Virus record (IMG/VR): IMGVR_UViG_3300048591_000484 | Location: 1-32,922 of that record | Strand: one strand, 5' to 3' | DNA length: 32,922 nt | DNA from: a virus | Part shown: positions 2,461 to 32,922 of the stretch, piece by piece | Position numbering within the stretch: position 1 is the stretch's first letter | Layout of the letters: each line of letters opens with the position of its first letter | Program-made: the position numbers and the translations under genes | Notes under the pieces: generated by a model | Told to the model about the DNA's origin: nothing | Seen by the model: the letters and a program-made list of their open reading frames with translations, nothing else | Databases searched by the model: none

Positions 2461-2985
2461 TTACTGTCTTGCTCCGTTAAATTGAGTTCTCTGAACTGGC
2501 CTTTGCTGCTGTGGTCTCTGTTGAGTGTTTGGCCTTGTAGCCTCGTTTGCATCGTCATCAACTTGTGGGATTCTTAGTAAAGACGCAAGCGTGTATCTCC
2601 TAAAATAAGTAACGCTAGAGCCGAAGGCTTGAGGGTTGTTTTTTTCTTTAATAACAATCTCAACTGGCTCTGCTATTAGTACTTGGCCTGATTTATGGGC
2701 TAGTATTGTTTGCACATACCACTGAGTCCCTTGGTCTGAGTTTTTTGACGAAAGCGGCTGAAGTACAGAAAACCCATATTTTCCAAAAATCTCTCTAAAT
2801 GATTCTATTACTGATTCCATGTCGGCGTACTTAGATTTAAAGAAAGGGTTTTGCGAATCCTTTACAGCTCCTTGCATCTCTGCTTGTGCCTTTGCTAGGT
2901 CTGCACAGAACTCAGGACCTAGGTTTGTCTGCATTTTATTTATTGCTATTTTATAATTATCTACTGTTTCTTGTATTTCTTGCAT
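2461..2985 (-). CDS. erf: ERF-family single-strand DNA annealing protein
   Basis: A protein of about 174 residues. The conserved ERF core is visible: AKAQAEM, then DSQNPFFKSKYADMESV, a glycine-rich VQTILAHKSGQ strand, QAFGSSVTYFRRYTLASLL and the acidic VDDDANE. The C-terminal tail is rich in Gln, Arg and Pro, as in other ERF proteins. ERF proteins form rings that anneal complementary single strands (P22 Erf group). The adjacent upstream RecE-like exonuclease would supply the single strands. SD AGGAG is 8 nt from ATG 2985; ATG 2991 is only 2 nt away and less likely. Confidence 0.9.
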   Translation of the reverse strand: MQEIQETVDNYKIAINKMQTNLGPEFCADLAKAQAEMQGAVKDSQNPFFKSKYADMESVIESFREIFGKYGFSVLQPLSSKNSDQGTQWYVQTILAHKSGQVLIAEPVEIVIKEKNNPQAFGSSVTYFRRYTLASLLRIPQVDDDANEATRPNTQQRPQQQRPVQRTQFNGARQ

Positions 2986-2996
2986 TTTCATTTCTC

Positions 2997-3815
2997 CTAT
3001 TCAAATTGACTAAGCTCCCACAATGGAAGCACTAACTCTTGTGTTTCTTTTTTATACCCAGCGGTCCAGTCAGTTTCAATAGCTAAGGAGTATTTTTCTA
3101 AAGCTTGTGAAACTCTTTCCCACCCTCTTTGAAGCGTCTCATCTGTTGCTTTATATACCGCCCAGTCGTAAGGCTTTTTCGTCTCTTGAGCAAGCCATAT
3201 ATATTCTATGTTTTCCATAGGACACCCTGTGTTTTGATTAAGTCCCCAGACATACCATGCTGCGCTTAAGTGGTATTTAAGGTTAGCAGCTTGTTTTGTG
3301 AACTCACTCTTTGATGCGTCTTGTGTTGTTTTGTACTCTACTATCCTAAATCCATTTTCTGTTGTTTCTAATAGATCAATTTTTGCCTTACACTTTGTCT
3401 CTGGTAAGCTGTGAAGCTCTCTTAATTCTTCTGGAAGGTCCCAAAATATAGCTATCTCAGACTTGCCGTTTCTTACCCTAGAATCCCAGTCAAGACTAAG
3501 CATCTGGCGCATCTGAGATAGCTGTTCGTTTTCTTCTTCTGTTAAAACTAAATAGTTCTCTTTTAAAGAGTCCTCGAATTGCTTTGCTTCTTCTTTTCCT
3601 TTTATTGTTCTTTTGTCAAACTTCGGTTGAATAACTTTATTTTTATTAAAAAGATCAGGCTCTAAAAACATCGTGTGAGCGAGTGTTCCGAATCTCATTG
3701 CTGGGCTTGGTTCTCGCTCTACTTTAGAGTGTAGTGGCGACCTAAGTATTTCTTTTAATTTAGATCCGCTTAAATAATCTAACGAGTGATACTCTTTATC
3801 TGACATTTTTTGCAT
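2997..3815 (-). CDS. RecE-like PD-(D/E)XK exonuclease (DUF3799 type)
   Basis: A 272-residue protein. It has the features of the exodeoxyribonuclease VIII PDDEXK-like domain: an N-terminal YLSGSKLKEILRSP helix, RFGTLAHTMFLEP (His47), a KIDLLE motif (Asp147) and IVEYKTT (Glu160, Lys162), then the downstream SAAWYVWGL helix. These residues bind the catalytic metals and cleave DNA. It would resect double-strand ends and pair with the ERF protein encoded 12 nt downstream. It is shorter than E. coli RecE, which is normal for phage versions. The start is ATG 3815 with SD AAAGG, and it overlaps the upstream HTH gene by 20 nt. Confidence 0.88.
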   Translation of the reverse strand: MQKMSDKEYHSLDYLSGSKLKEILRSPLHSKVEREPSPAMRFGTLAHTMFLEPDLFNKNKVIQPKFDKRTIKGKEEAKQFEDSLKENYLVLTEEENEQLSQMRQMLSLDWDSRVRNGKSEIAIFWDLPEELRELHSLPETKCKAKIDLLETTENGFRIVEYKTTQDASKSEFTKQAANLKYHLSAAWYVWGLNQNTGCPMENIEYIWLAQETKKPYDWAVYKATDETLQRGWERVSQALEKYSLAIETDWTAGYKKETQELVLPLWELSQFE

Positions 3816-3990
3816 GAATTAACCTTTCTTTAAATCTCACGTTTTGGATCTTATTTACTTCTTTTCTAAATTCTGGGTTCTTAATTAAGAGATTAGATGC
3901 TATCCTTTGAGATACATCACAACGCTTGCAAGCAAGATAATAGCTCCAGCCTTGATTCATTTCTTTAAGAATTTGATTAAGGATAGACAT
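3796..3990 (-). CDS. Small HTH protein, paralogue of the protein at 4966-5217
   Basis: A 64-residue basic protein. The order of features, LKEMNQGWSYYLACKR, a DVSQRIASNLL recognition-like helix, then NPEFRKEVNKIQNVRFKERL, matches the protein at 4966-5217 (LKLVKEGYSYHYAAGQ, then NPDFHKEIKKILINRNIKRL). This indicates a duplicated DNA-binding fold. The start is ATG 3990 with a strong SD AGGAGAAGGG. It is the first gene after the structured region and precedes the exonuclease with a 20-nt overlap. It could autoregulate from the promoter at 4019-4047. Confidence 0.65.
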   Translation of the reverse strand: MSILNQILKEMNQGWSYYLACKRCDVSQRIASNLLIKNPEFRKEVNKIQNVRFKERLIHAKNVR

Positions 3991-4018
3991 TTACCCTTCT
4001 CCTATTTTTGTGTGTATT

Positions 4019-4047
4019 GTTATTCTATATGTTTTTAAAAAAGTAAA
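4019..4047 (-). promoter_or_regulatory. Putative early promoter (TTTACT, 17 nt, AATAAC)
   Basis: On the minus strand TTTACT (4047-4042) is followed after 17 nt by AATAAC (4024-4019), with a T-run and A-run in the spacer. The same TTTACT plus T-run element with 17-nt spacing precedes the HNH gene (4904) and the plus-strand operon (6088). It would start transcription of the HTH, exonuclease and ERF genes. The -10 matches the consensus at only four of six bases. Confidence 0.45.
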
Positions 4048-4124
4048 ATAAATTTTTAATAAAGCTGTAAGCCCACTGGGTTTTTCGTGTCTTATTTGTA
4101 TTTAATACCAAGGGGGTCTTTTTT

Positions 4125-4363
4125 GGCCTCGGCTGCTGTACTCAGCAGCGAGGAAACCAGCGGTAGCGAGGCCCATAGAAATAGACTACTAGGAGCTTTG
4201 CCCTAGTTTTTTTCTATTTCCGGCCAGCTTATTTTTGATTCACTGGCAGCTATGTATCCCCAAGTTGGCGGCCTTGCGCTCGGACCTTATTCCCTCGGTT
4301 CCGAGTCATGGGCTGCTATTTCAGCAGTCTATCGGGGCCATGCTAGTCGGGATTCAACCCACT
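4125..4363. ncRNA. Structured GC-rich intergenic element, candidate non-coding RNA
   Basis: A 398-nt gap (3991-4388) in a tightly packed genome contains this run of stem-loops. They are: 4127-4131/4149-4153 with 4133-4138/4143-4148 (11 bp, 4-nt loop); 4178-4184/4214-4220 with inner 4188-4193/4202-4207; 4223-4227/4243-4247; 4279-4286/4297-4305; 4307-4311/4338-4342 with inner 4313-4317/4323-4327; and 4345-4351/4358-4363. The region is much richer in G and C than its neighbours and has no convincing ORF on either strand. It follows the HNH gene in the direction of transcription. The active strand is not clear: on plus, the inner stem at 4188-4207 is followed by a run of T. I do not recognise a known RNA family. 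Confidence 0.55.
4188..4213 (+). terminator. Rho-independent terminator-like hairpin, plus strand
   Basis: Stem ACTAGG/CCTAGT with an 8-nt loop is followed directly by seven T on the plus strand. No plus-strand gene lies upstream, so it would end a short non-coding plus transcript or block antisense transcription. It may instead only be part of the larger fold of the structured element. Confidence 0.45.
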
Positions 4364-4388
4364 ATTTCACGCTCCGGCATCTTGGTTA

Positions 4389-4805
4389 TTAAACAGAATC
4401 CAATTTTCCAAAATTGCAATCTCTACACAAAATTTGAAGGTTAGATTCTTCAAATGCTAAATCTGGGCGCAAAACTCTCGGTATTTTGTGATCTACTTGG
4501 AGATTTGCTGATGAACCACAACAAACACATTCTTTTTTGTTTTTATTTAAAAAATGATATCTAAGTGACAGCCATTTGCGAGACTTATAAAAGTTTTTTC
4601 CTAACAACAAATTTACAGGTTGATCTGTTTTTGGAATTTCTTTGCTACCTGTAAGCCTGTTTTTTAAAACCCTATTTTGCTTTTCAAGTTCGCAAACCCG
4701 TTTTTTTAAAATTAGTATTTTTCTATCTTTGTCTTTTATAGTATCAACTTTTAATATAAAAATTGATTGCCATCTGTCGATTTTTGAAATAAATTCTTTT
4801 TTCAT
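4389..4805 (-). CDS. HNH endonuclease with N-terminal coiled coil
   Basis: A 138-residue protein. Residues 20-55 form a Lys/Glu/Leu-rich coiled coil. Residues 72-138 are an HNH domain: CVCC (93-96), DH (105-106, the catalytic His), Asn122, then CRDCN (127-131), giving four zinc-binding cysteines. Such proteins make nicks or double-strand breaks and are often homing endonucleases or packaging nucleases. Here it is flanked by structured DNA on both sides and by two paralogous HTH genes, not by terminase genes, which fits a mobile or homing role. Two tandem TAA stops end it. The start is ATG 4805 with a weak AGGA SD. Confidence 0.85.
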   Translation of the reverse strand: MKKEFISKIDRWQSIFILKVDTIKDKDRKILILKKRVCELEKQNRVLKNRLTGSKEIPKTDQPVNLLLGKNFYKSRKWLSLRYHFLNKNKKECVCCGSSANLQVDHKIPRVLRPDLAFEESNLQILCRDCNFGKLDSV

Positions 4806-4875
4806 GGGTCCTACTTGTACTAGGTACTCAAGACTGGCAGTCCACAGCGGCTGCCTTTCTTTTTTCTTGCTATTG

Positions 4876-4904
4876 AATAAATTACAATTTTTTTAAAAAG
4901 TAAA
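4876..4904 (-). promoter_or_regulatory. Putative early promoter for HNH gene
   Basis: On the minus strand TTTACT (4904-4899) plus a T-run and A-run is followed 17 nt later by TTTATT (4881-4876). The element is the same as at 4019-4047 and 6088-6116. The leader between it and ATG 4805 contains inverted repeats (GGCAG/CTGCC and GTAC/GTAC), so the HNH mRNA has a folded 5' end. The 160-nt gap 4806-4965 holds only this promoter and leader. Confidence 0.45.
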
Positions 4905-4965
4905 CAAAATCTGGACTTCTTTTGCGCAGTTTAAATGCTACTATGAGTTATTCCTTCTCTAAATT

Positions 4966-5217
4966 CTAAGATGGATCTTGGGGCTTTTCGGCCCCTTCTT
5001 TTTTGTAAATAGCTAAATCACTTAGCCTTTTAATATTTCTATTTATTAAGATTTTCTTAATCTCTTTGTGAAAATCAGGATTTTCTTTTCTAAAATTAAC
5101 GCTTTTTCGATAACTCATTCCTAATTGCCCAGCAGCGTAATGATAAGAATAGCCTTCTTTTACAAGTTTTAAGATTTTGTAAGATATTTCTTTAGAGTTC
5201 ATAAAGGAAAGGCCCAT
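4966..5217 (-). CDS. Small HTH protein, paralogue of the protein at 3796-3990
   Basis: A protein of 83 residues from ATG 5217 (78 from ATG 5202, which fits the paralogue's length better). The core ILKLVKEGYSYHYAAGQLG is followed by a basic helix and NPDFHKEIKKILINRNIKRL, shared with the protein at 3796-3990. A DNA-binding role is inferred. The tail contains a GGGGC/GCCCC hairpin at the DNA level (4995-5010). Start choice is uncertain because ATG 5217 lies in the loop of a hairpin (5208-5233) and ATG 5202 just after it, so translation may be controlled by this hairpin. Confidence 0.6.
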   Translation of the reverse strand: MGLSFMNSKEISYKILKLVKEGYSYHYAAGQLGMSYRKSVNFRKENPDFHKEIKKILINRNIKRLSDLAIYKKEGAEKPQDPS

Positions 5218-5233
5218 CTTTCGACAGGCCTTT
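5208..5233. promoter_or_regulatory. Hairpin over the start of the HTH gene
   Basis: AAAGGCC (5208-5214) and GGCCTTT (5227-5233) form a perfect 7-bp stem with a 12-nt loop. On the minus strand it sequesters the only SD-like sequence (AAAGG) upstream of ATG 5217. On the plus strand it is followed by TTT, so it may also act as a weak terminator. Confidence 0.45.
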
Positions 5234-5251
5234 TGTACATCTTGCACAGAA

Positions 5252-5280
5252 TAAAATAGGAGAAATTACTAAACAGTAAA
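5252..5280 (-). promoter_or_regulatory. Putative promoter with inverted repeat
   Basis: On the minus strand TTTACT (5280-5275) is followed after about 16 nt by TATTTT (5258-5253). A perfect inverted repeat TTACT/AGTAA with a 4-nt spacer (5266-5279) overlaps the -35 box and could be an operator for one of the small HTH proteins. It is the weakest of the TTTACT-type promoters because the T-run is missing. Confidence 0.35.
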
Positions 5281-5320
5281 GTCTTAAAAAACACTATCAA
5301 ATATGCTTCTTTAAGTAAAC

Positions 5321-5977
5321 CTATTTTCTGCACTTGATCGGCCCGTAGGGTAAATTTTGGTTGATCGGGTACTCTAGCTCTATAATACTTTCATTGTTAG
5401 TTCCTAAATACCAATGAGTCTCAGGGCTCATGCCCATAATGTAACGAGAAGACGCTGGACCAATCTCATGCCCCACAGACACAACTACAGACCTATTCCC
5501 ATAATGCACTAAAAGCCTTGTGTTAGGCGCAAAGTTCTTTTTCATGTTCAGAGTAGCTCCCCAAGTCTCCTGCTCAATAGATGGCCGATAAAAGCCACGA
5601 GAACCCTGGCCCCACCAACCACCGCCCTCGGGAGGTGTCCATTTTCTCTTATACTCAGCATTATAAACATCAGAGCAATCTTTTTTCCCTAAGATGTTGC
5701 AGCTCATTTTTAAGTGCTCATCAATTCTATGCTCTTCGTGTACAGGGTAAGCTCCCCTTACAAAAAGATCCGCAGTAGAAACCCAGTGGCTTTCAATTAC
5801 AGACCTGCCAATAATAGGAAGCTCGATAGATCGCCCATCTCTTAGCTCAATCTTAACTCTTTTGCTTGAACAAATATCGTCCTCTGCTTTACAAGAAGAG
5901 ATTGAGAGAAAAAGAATAATGATAATTGATAAAGTCCACGCCATAACTGCCAGGTCAATCTTTGTTTGTTTGTTCAA
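5321..5977 (-). CDS. Lipoprotein with possible double-psi beta-barrel domain
   Basis: A 218-residue protein. Residues 1-29 are a lipoprotein signal peptide: a basic n-region, a long hydrophobic core and the lipobox ISSC with Cys29. The mature part has about six cysteines and a Gly/Trp-rich stretch (PPEGGGWWGQGSRG, about 117-130). The C-terminal third (NTRLLVHYGNRSVVVSVGHE then IGPASSRYIMG and WYLGT) resembles the RlpA-like double-psi beta-barrel pattern with its GP and LG positions, but the match is loose. It is the first gene from the divergent control region, so it is made early. An envelope role such as superinfection exclusion is possible but not shown. The start is TTG 5977 with SD GAGGGA. 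Confidence 0.6.
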   Translation of the reverse strand: MNKQTKIDLAVMAWTLSIIIILFLSISSCKAEDDICSSKRVKIELRDGRSIELPIIGRSVIESHWVSTADLFVRGAYPVHEEHRIDEHLKMSCNILGKKDCSDVYNAEYKRKWTPPEGGGWWGQGSRGFYRPSIEQETWGATLNMKKNFAPNTRLLVHYGNRSVVVSVGHEIGPASSRYIMGMSPETHWYLGTNNESIIELEYPINQNLPYGPIKCRK

Positions 5978-32343: not shown

Positions 32344-32642
32344 TTTTTTACCTCTCTTTGTTTCCCATATTTCTTTTCTATATACTTATTATAATTGATA
32401 ACTGCGTCTTTAAGTTTGAAATCATAGCCAACCCTGCATTTCAGTGTTACTTCTCTTGGCTTGTATTTCCACAGCTTTTCAGCTGTTTTTTCTAAGTATG
32501 TTAAAAACTCATCTGATTTTTCTCCACCACTCGGATCTAACAATATCTCGGCCAGTATTTTTAGAGTTTCTCTAATGTTTGCAATGCTTGTTTGAGACTT
32601 CTTTCCCTCTCGCTTCGCAATTTCTTTGATTAGTTTTTTCAT
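32340..32642 (-). CDS. Hypothetical helical protein after the Gly-rich array
   Basis: A 100-residue highly charged helical protein (KKLIKEIAKREGKKSQTSIA, later YLEKTAEKLWKYKPREVTL). ATG 32642 is coupled as ATGA to a frame that reads Ala-Leu/Met through the hexamer array, and lies 22 nt after the stop of the Gly-rich frame. The SD AAGGA is far (13 nt), so translation may depend on ribosomes arriving from the repeat. Function not recognised. Confidence 0.55.
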   Translation of the reverse strand: MKKLIKEIAKREGKKSQTSIANIRETLKILAEILLDPSGGEKSDEFLTYLEKTAEKLWKYKPREVTLKCRVGYDFKLKDAVINYNKYIEKKYGKQREVKK

Positions 32643-32663
32643 CTTTTATTCTTAATCCTTTCC

Positions 32664-32922
32664 TTAGTCGCCATAGCCAGAGCCAGAGCCATCGCCAGAG
32701 CCATAGCCAGAGCCAGAGCCAGAGCCATCGCCAGAGCCAGAGCCAGAGCCAGAGCCATCGCCATAGCCATCGCCATAGCCAGAGCCAGAGCCATAGCCAG
32801 AGCCAGAGCCAGAGCCATCGCCAGAGCCAGAGCCAGAGCCAGAGCCATCGCCATAGCCATAGCCATAGCCAGAGCCAGAGCCAGAGCCATAGCCAGAGCC
32901 ATCGTTTATTTTATTTAAGATT
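32664..32922 (-). CDS. Gly-Ser/Tyr/Asp repeat protein, body and C-terminus (5' end at contig edge)
   Basis: This is the main part of the protein whose start is at 130-132 (circle). From the right edge the frame reads 39 X-Gly pairs: 23 Ser, 9 Tyr and 7 Asp, then Gly-Asp and TAA (32664-32666). With its eight-residue leader MEILNKIN the full product is 87 residues, disordered, with no hydrophobic core. It is open in five of six frames, so protein-level evidence is weak; the start overlaps the preceding gene end as other genes in this operon do. Short stickers (Tyr) separated by Gly-Ser resemble low-complexity domains that can condense. This is only a hypothesis. Confidence 0.5.
   Translation of the reverse strand, partial: ILNKINDGSGYGSGSGSGYGYGYGDGSGSGSGSGDGSGSGSGYGSGSGYGDGYGDGSGSGSGSGDGSGSGSGYGSGDGSGSGYGD
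32670..32903. repeat. Hexanucleotide array 1 (39 units in the circle)
   Basis: Thirty-nine consecutive 6-bp units, each gccaga, gccata or gccatc on the plus strand. An 11-unit (66-bp) block at 32700-32765 recurs at 32790-32855, so the array has a higher-order repeat from a recent duplication. The last 18 units are also present at 1-108 because of the assembly overlap. Copy number is uncertain because short reads cannot span the array. Confidence 0.95.
32796..32922. repeat. Right copy of 127-bp direct terminal repeat
   Basis: Identical to 1-127. The overlap includes 18 hexamer units and the 19 bases after them, up to the taagatt found at both ends. The assembler probably broke the circle here because of the low-complexity array. 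Confidence 0.9.

Follow-up and report, generated by a model that had tools for sequence, protein, structure and literature searches.

A phage HNH endonuclease gene beside an orphan structured block, and folded RNA leaders among its relatives

Gene neighbourhood of the HNH gene

The window analyzed here, the whole stretch of 32,922 bases, is a complete IMG/VR virus record and represents a phage. The genes at the locus follow each other on the minus strand in the order HTH2, HNH, a non-coding block, HTH1, exonuclease, and ERF. The features discussed below are:

2461-2991, minus strand: ERF-type single-strand annealing protein (PF04404, E 3.1e-27)
2997-3815, minus strand: PD-(D/E)XK exonuclease, DUF3799 (PF12684, E 1.4e-23)
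3796-3990, minus strand: HTH1, 64 aa, paralogue of HTH2
4015-4052, minus strand: T/A-rich stretch 5' of HTH1 that looks like a promoter, TTTATT..TATAGAAT / TTTACT, read from the sequence
4101-4390, plus strand favoured, strand not settled: structured non-coding block, multibranched in its predicted fold
4389-4805, minus strand: HNH endonuclease, 138 aa, with a coiled-coil-like N-terminus and a C-terminal CxxC..DH..N..CxxCN HNH motif
4836-4865, plus strand: intrinsic-terminator-like hairpin with a T run, GGCAG..CTGCC TTTCTTTTTT; on the minus strand it lies inside the HNH leader
4966-5202, minus strand: HTH2, 78 aa, helix-turn-helix-like, weak match to HTH_23 (Pfam)
4980-5003, plus strand: terminator-like hairpin from a terminator scan
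5208-5233, minus strand: hairpin AAAGGCC..GGCCTTT immediately preceding the HTH2 start codon; the type-A leader model described below matches it weakly

The two small HTH proteins had been described as paralogous in the initial annotation, and they indeed align at 40% over 43 amino acids (E 1e-10); a search for further relatives of HTH1 and HTH2 found none. Between HTH1 and the exonuclease start there is a 20-nt overlap, which makes HTH1 a probable member of the exo-ERF operon and not of an HNH cassette. The arrangement HTH-HNH-RNA-HTH, initially proposed as one module, is therefore doubtful as a single unit. Similarly, the proposal of a TTTACT-type promoter for each unit was not upheld, since this hexamer occurs 20 times on the plus strand and 21 times on the minus strand of the window and is too frequent to serve as a promoter signature. 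A longer T/A-rich string is common to the TTTACT sites before HTH1 (4047) and HNH (4904). The segment 5195-5245, which contains the hairpin before HTH2, has z -3.3 on the minus strand relative to dinucleotide shuffles. At the end of the record (32639-32902), an ORF of nearly pure Ala-Leu-Met repeats represents simple-repeat DNA and not a normal gene.

HNH endonuclease and its family

The HNH gene is intact. Its product scores 31.6 bits with PF01844 (cut-off 21.4) and matches PHROG 144 with E 1.9e-15 (family PHROG 144 / 589 / 5956), and examination of a seven-member alignment revealed that all family-invariant catalytic and zinc residues are present. The PHROG models cover the protein only and are silent on RNA. 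The family is found in 226 phage records and at least 319 viral stretches, and the seven-member alignment was used to retrieve 80 viral loci. In Vibrio phage 1.161.O, an unannotated HNH relative (L007, 2369-2824) has an in-frame stop codon and is a degenerate copy. Decay by in-frame stop is expected of homing genes.

Neither a RuvC nor a PLMP nor any other RNA-binding domain was recognized in the window protein, and the IscB model scored 24 bits (cut-off 175) in a match confined to the HNH segment. The earlier remark that a RuvC domain, intron core, or exon could not be seen agrees with the Rfam, Pfam, and IscB-model searches, and the flanking ORFs are complete.

Relatives of this phage were picked among viral contigs by terminase or major capsid protein, at about 45-65% identity over the best segment. 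A search of 25 such records did not reveal the HNH gene; this is suggestive only, since the majority of them are fragmentary and a positive-control signal was not obtained. Four of the 25 carry the exonuclease gene, each with ERF alongside and with HNH not found. Given these observations, the HNH cassette looks inserted. The initial annotation offered a homing element or a new RNA-associated nuclease system as explanations, and the first of these is the better half: the family is phage-wide, and HNH was not found in the 25 relatives, including the four with exo-ERF.

Folded non-coding block

The GC-rich cluster of hairpins noticed initially is real, and its extent is best given as about 290 nt (4101-4390). 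The block has a G+C content of about 50%, compared with 28-33% in its flanks. When all 200-nt windows were ranked by fold energy for their G+C, the block was the top outlier on the plus strand and the second on the minus strand, behind the simple repeats that end the record. Compared with dinucleotide shuffles, the z-score of 4101-4390 is -6.0 on the plus strand and -3.4 on the minus strand, and none of 150 shuffles was as stable on either strand. The predicted plus-strand fold is closed by a helix between 4102-4112 and 4381-4391, and thus ends at, or a few nucleotides from, the HNH stop codon.

A comparison with 4227 Rfam models at gathering and lax thresholds (3700-5500 up to E 5) gave no credible match to the block, and a tRNA and tmRNA search of the window found none. 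A tRNA-arm-like string near 4350 was rejected, as it does not pair as a tRNA arm. Homologues of the block were sought by DNA similarity in phages and plasmids, by exact pattern in viral contigs, and by nhmmer and blastn against the fetched HNH loci; each search returned just short A/T-rich chance matches. Weak DNA matches in one relative of this phage (G023) fall in or beside ordinary genes and were discarded. The HNH relatives on contigs L092 and L004 are without an adjoining structured block of the window's kind. The block is thus an orphan at present, one known sequence without a second copy for covariation. In a distant relative (L003, 5801-6000), a GC-rich folded stretch lies directly 5' of the exonuclease start; it bears no visible likeness to the window block.

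In HNH leaders of other phages, where the gene fixes the strand, the sense strand folds better in 27 of 33 cases. Since the z-score of the block is also lower on the plus strand, this strand is favoured by analogy for what is a single example; all neighbouring genes lie on the opposite one. A plus-strand transcript would enter the HNH gene at its 3' end and then meet the hairpins at 4836-4865 and 4980-5003, and therefore would be antisense to HNH. The region 4806-4870 has z -2.9 on the plus strand. Terminator-like sites on this strand show a mild excess (14 observed vs 8.8 +/- 3.1 by chance), and inspection by eye revealed no convincing plus-strand promoter for a block transcript.

The block could alternatively act at the DNA level, as a replication origin, a recombination or packaging site, or a mobile cluster of GC-rich palindromes, with the RNA fold being incidental. 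The exonuclease and ERF genes adjoin it, several short palindromes lie inside it, and both strands fold significantly, all of which is consistent with such an element. However, the fold shows a strong strand asymmetry (z -6.0 vs -3.4), no GC-skew switch was seen at the block, and the closing helix is long-range, so that we regard a DNA-level element as unlikely, if the best of the alternatives.

Structured leaders upstream of HNH genes

Folding energies corrected for base composition demonstrated that, in the 80 viral loci, structure is concentrated upstream of the HNH start. The mean z is -1.1 over the 150 nt adjoining the gene on its upstream side; for windows that begin 250-350 nt upstream it is about -0.5, and it is near zero within the HNH ORF and downstream of it. 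A window below z -3 occurs upstream (within about 550 nt) in 30 of 71 loci, downstream in five, and far upstream in one (paired Wilcoxon p 2e-7 and 2e-10 in the bin comparison); these 71 are the non-redundant loci with full flanks and the window itself left out, they are not independent of each other, and their gene starts are mechanical. The folded element of the relatives sits directly 5' of the HNH start codon. Part of this excess could be due to terminators before a gene. The direct repeats and the compensatory pairing described below go beyond such terminators. The leader of one phage HNH gene (L073, 2125-2254) matches RF02932, the Betaproteobacteria-1 RNA of unknown function; this model has no match in the window.

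In 11 loci (L014, L015, L017, L024, L026, L027, L031, L036, L038, L047, and L054), the leader is a pseudoknotted RNA of about 95 nt, here called type-A, which ends 0-4 nt before the called HNH start. It consists of a small stem-loop and a long second hairpin, and the loop of the former pairs with a segment within the latter. In the alignment, 95.8% of cells pair, and changes on both sides are observed in 20 of the 35 pairs (7.9 +/- 1.9 in shuffles). In particular, the pseudoknot alone has both-side changes in four of its seven pairs, with 98.7% pairing. The second hairpin has a U run at its end in ten of the 11 members. The type-A RNAs look like terminated leaders, and some members are preceded by a promoter-like TTGaac-N17-TAcAAT. 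The members scanned against Rfam gave no match. L014, L015, and L038 share no common flanking genes with the other eight loci; the type-A RNA thus appears to go with the HNH gene, as the pair occurs in two unrelated gene contexts.

The type-A model R1 gave weak matches (E 0.005-0.012) to the 5' hairpin of two leaders of another kind, L056 and L078. In these type-B leaders, a long hairpin that carries a U run is followed by about 270 nt to HNH, as in Vibrio phage 2.095.A (L005) and Xanthomonas phage Kintu (L009). Several of them contain a direct repeat of 6-13 nt that is specific to each locus (L005, L009, L018, L035, L045, L050, L052, L056, L059, L060, L063, and L073), the first copy being located 65-125 nt and the second 7-30 nt before the HNH start codon, near the HNH ribosome-binding site. 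The first copy often follows GGCUCC, and the second often follows CACC. Direct repeats of at least 10 nt occur in 7 of 79 loci, compared with 0.15 expected from cross-locus pairing. Pairing with an anti-repeat segment was rejected as the cause of the repeat, as no consistent complement was found.

The window resembles neither kind. R1 did not match the block, which accordingly does not group with the type-A RNAs; the best R1 match in the window (13.2 bits, E 0.03 in 1.7 kb) is the plain hairpin before HTH2, not before HNH, and covers neither P3/P4 nor the pseudoknot, whereas members score 68-109 bits. No type-B-like direct repeat was found before the window HNH or HTH1 gene, which sets both apart from the type-B leaders. 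The conserved pairing in HNH relatives, proposed as a check in the initial annotation, thus exists in the type-A leaders upstream of the gene, whereas the window block has no homologue in which pairing could be conserved. Likewise, a new RNA-associated nuclease system gains ground at the level of the family, with its 30 of 71 folded leaders and type-A pairing, but not in the window, where the block is neither type-A nor upstream. A survey of the literature at the level of titles and abstracts brought up no publication that links structured RNAs with this HNH family.

Discussion

The explanation that we prefer, and to which we give about an even chance of being correct, is a free-standing homing-type cassette, consisting of HNH and probably HTH2, that lies beside the HTH1-exo-ERF operon and is accompanied by a genuine regulatory structured RNA. 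Its homing part is suggested by the intact HNH gene of a phage-wide family and by the degenerate copy in Vibrio phage 1.161.O. In such a cassette, the HNH protein would nick the DNA of a co-infecting relative, recombination would then copy the cassette in, and the structured element would control expression. If transcribed from the plus strand, the block would form the 5' domain of a transcript directed against HNH and running towards 4836-4865, and could curb a costly nuclease as a cis-antisense brake. If transcribed from the minus strand, it would be an intercistronic element, an insulator or the leader of the downstream recombination operon. Of this, the genes, the fold, and the four exo-ERF relatives in which HNH was not found are observed; insertion, mobility, transcription, and the regulatory role are deduced.

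The regulatory RNA part is suggested by a fold far beyond chance, by the folds of relatives that abut the HNH start, and by the precedent of T4-like phages, in which RNA structures at the ribosome-binding site, together with embedded promoters, keep the expression of homing endonuclease genes down (PMC2988022). I-TevI, in addition, acts as a repressor of its own promoter, where it uses a site similar to its target (PMC2988022). For the leaders of the HNH family, expression control of this T4-like type appears to fit best. The window RNA is unlike the T4-like hairpins in being about 290 nt long, in lying 3' of the gene, and in leaving the HNH ribosome-binding site uncovered. Because the block is 3' of HNH and better folded on the opposite strand, its putative tie to this gene is one of adjacency. 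We also count against the preferred explanation that the block is present in a single copy, that a plus-strand promoter was not found, that the excess of plus-strand terminators is mild, and that homing is predicted only.

The cassette itself resembles the free-standing HNH homing endonucleases of phages: a small HNH gene with intact catalytic residues is situated between phage genes and was not found in relatives of this phage (25 records, mostly fragments). Mobile genes of this type include mobA-E of T4 and mobE of Aeh1.

It seems quite improbable that the locus is a chance neighbourhood, in which an ordinary HNH gene happens to adjoin an unrelated structured RNA, be it the leader of the exo-ERF operon or nothing in particular. 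In keeping with chance, the arrangement was not found in any relative, and few members of the HNH family (5 of 71) have structure downstream of the gene. Nevertheless, the fold of the block ends only a few nucleotides from the HNH stop codon, and four exo-ERF relatives without a detected HNH gene were found.

Still more doubtful is a ribonucleoprotein, in which HNH would work with a dedicated RNA as guide, scaffold, or cofactor, and the window would contain a rearranged or divergent form of the RNAs of its relatives. The structured leaders (30 of 71 upstream vs 5 downstream), the compensatory changes in type-A pairs including the pseudoknot, the two unrelated contexts of the type-A RNA with HNH, and the excess of long type-B repeats would all be consistent with this. 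Opposed to it are the lack of a recognizable RuvC, PLMP, or RNA-binding domain, the U-run ends of type-A RNAs and their likeness to terminated leaders, and the block itself, which is non-homologous to the leader RNAs and 3' of HNH. The closest known systems of this kind are HEARO / IscB (OMEGA), which likewise combine an HNH gene with an adjacent structured RNA and an HNH segment resembling that of the window protein. This protein, however, has 138 aa with no RuvC or PLMP found, and its RNA is downstream of the ORF. We rejected membership in HEARO / IscB, having found neither a RuvC split by HNH, nor a match to RF02033, nor an omegaRNA directly upstream. IshB proteins are HNH-only relatives of IscB that lack RuvC and keep the PLMP domain and a HEARO-like RNA. 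The window protein is similar to them in having HNH without RuvC, and differs in that no HEARO-like RNA was found; it may also be without PLMP, as no PLMP-like match was seen among the Pfam models, which may not include this domain.

That HNH is the ORF of a group I or group II intron, or of what remains of one, is very improbable: phage group I introns frequently contain HNH ORFs, and a folded block adjoins the one seen here, but no Rfam intron model matched the window at gathering or 3700-5500 up to E 5, and the two flanking ORFs are complete, with no split exon or intron core seen.

Apart from the homing cassette with a regulatory RNA preferred for this locus, a broader generalization would be that small HNH nucleases throughout phages move with dedicated structured RNAs and work, or are controlled, through them, the window being a variant with its RNA downstream of the gene and on the opposite strand; we consider this decidedly unlikely. 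Among the mobile genes of phages, free-standing HNH genes are some of the most frequent, and their annotation usually mentions no RNA. If many of them carry a conserved RNA, then either their control would be more elaborate than the hairpins of T4, or the family may include RNA-dependent nucleases. If true, this would bear on the origin of the HNH-RNA partnership of IscB and Cas9.
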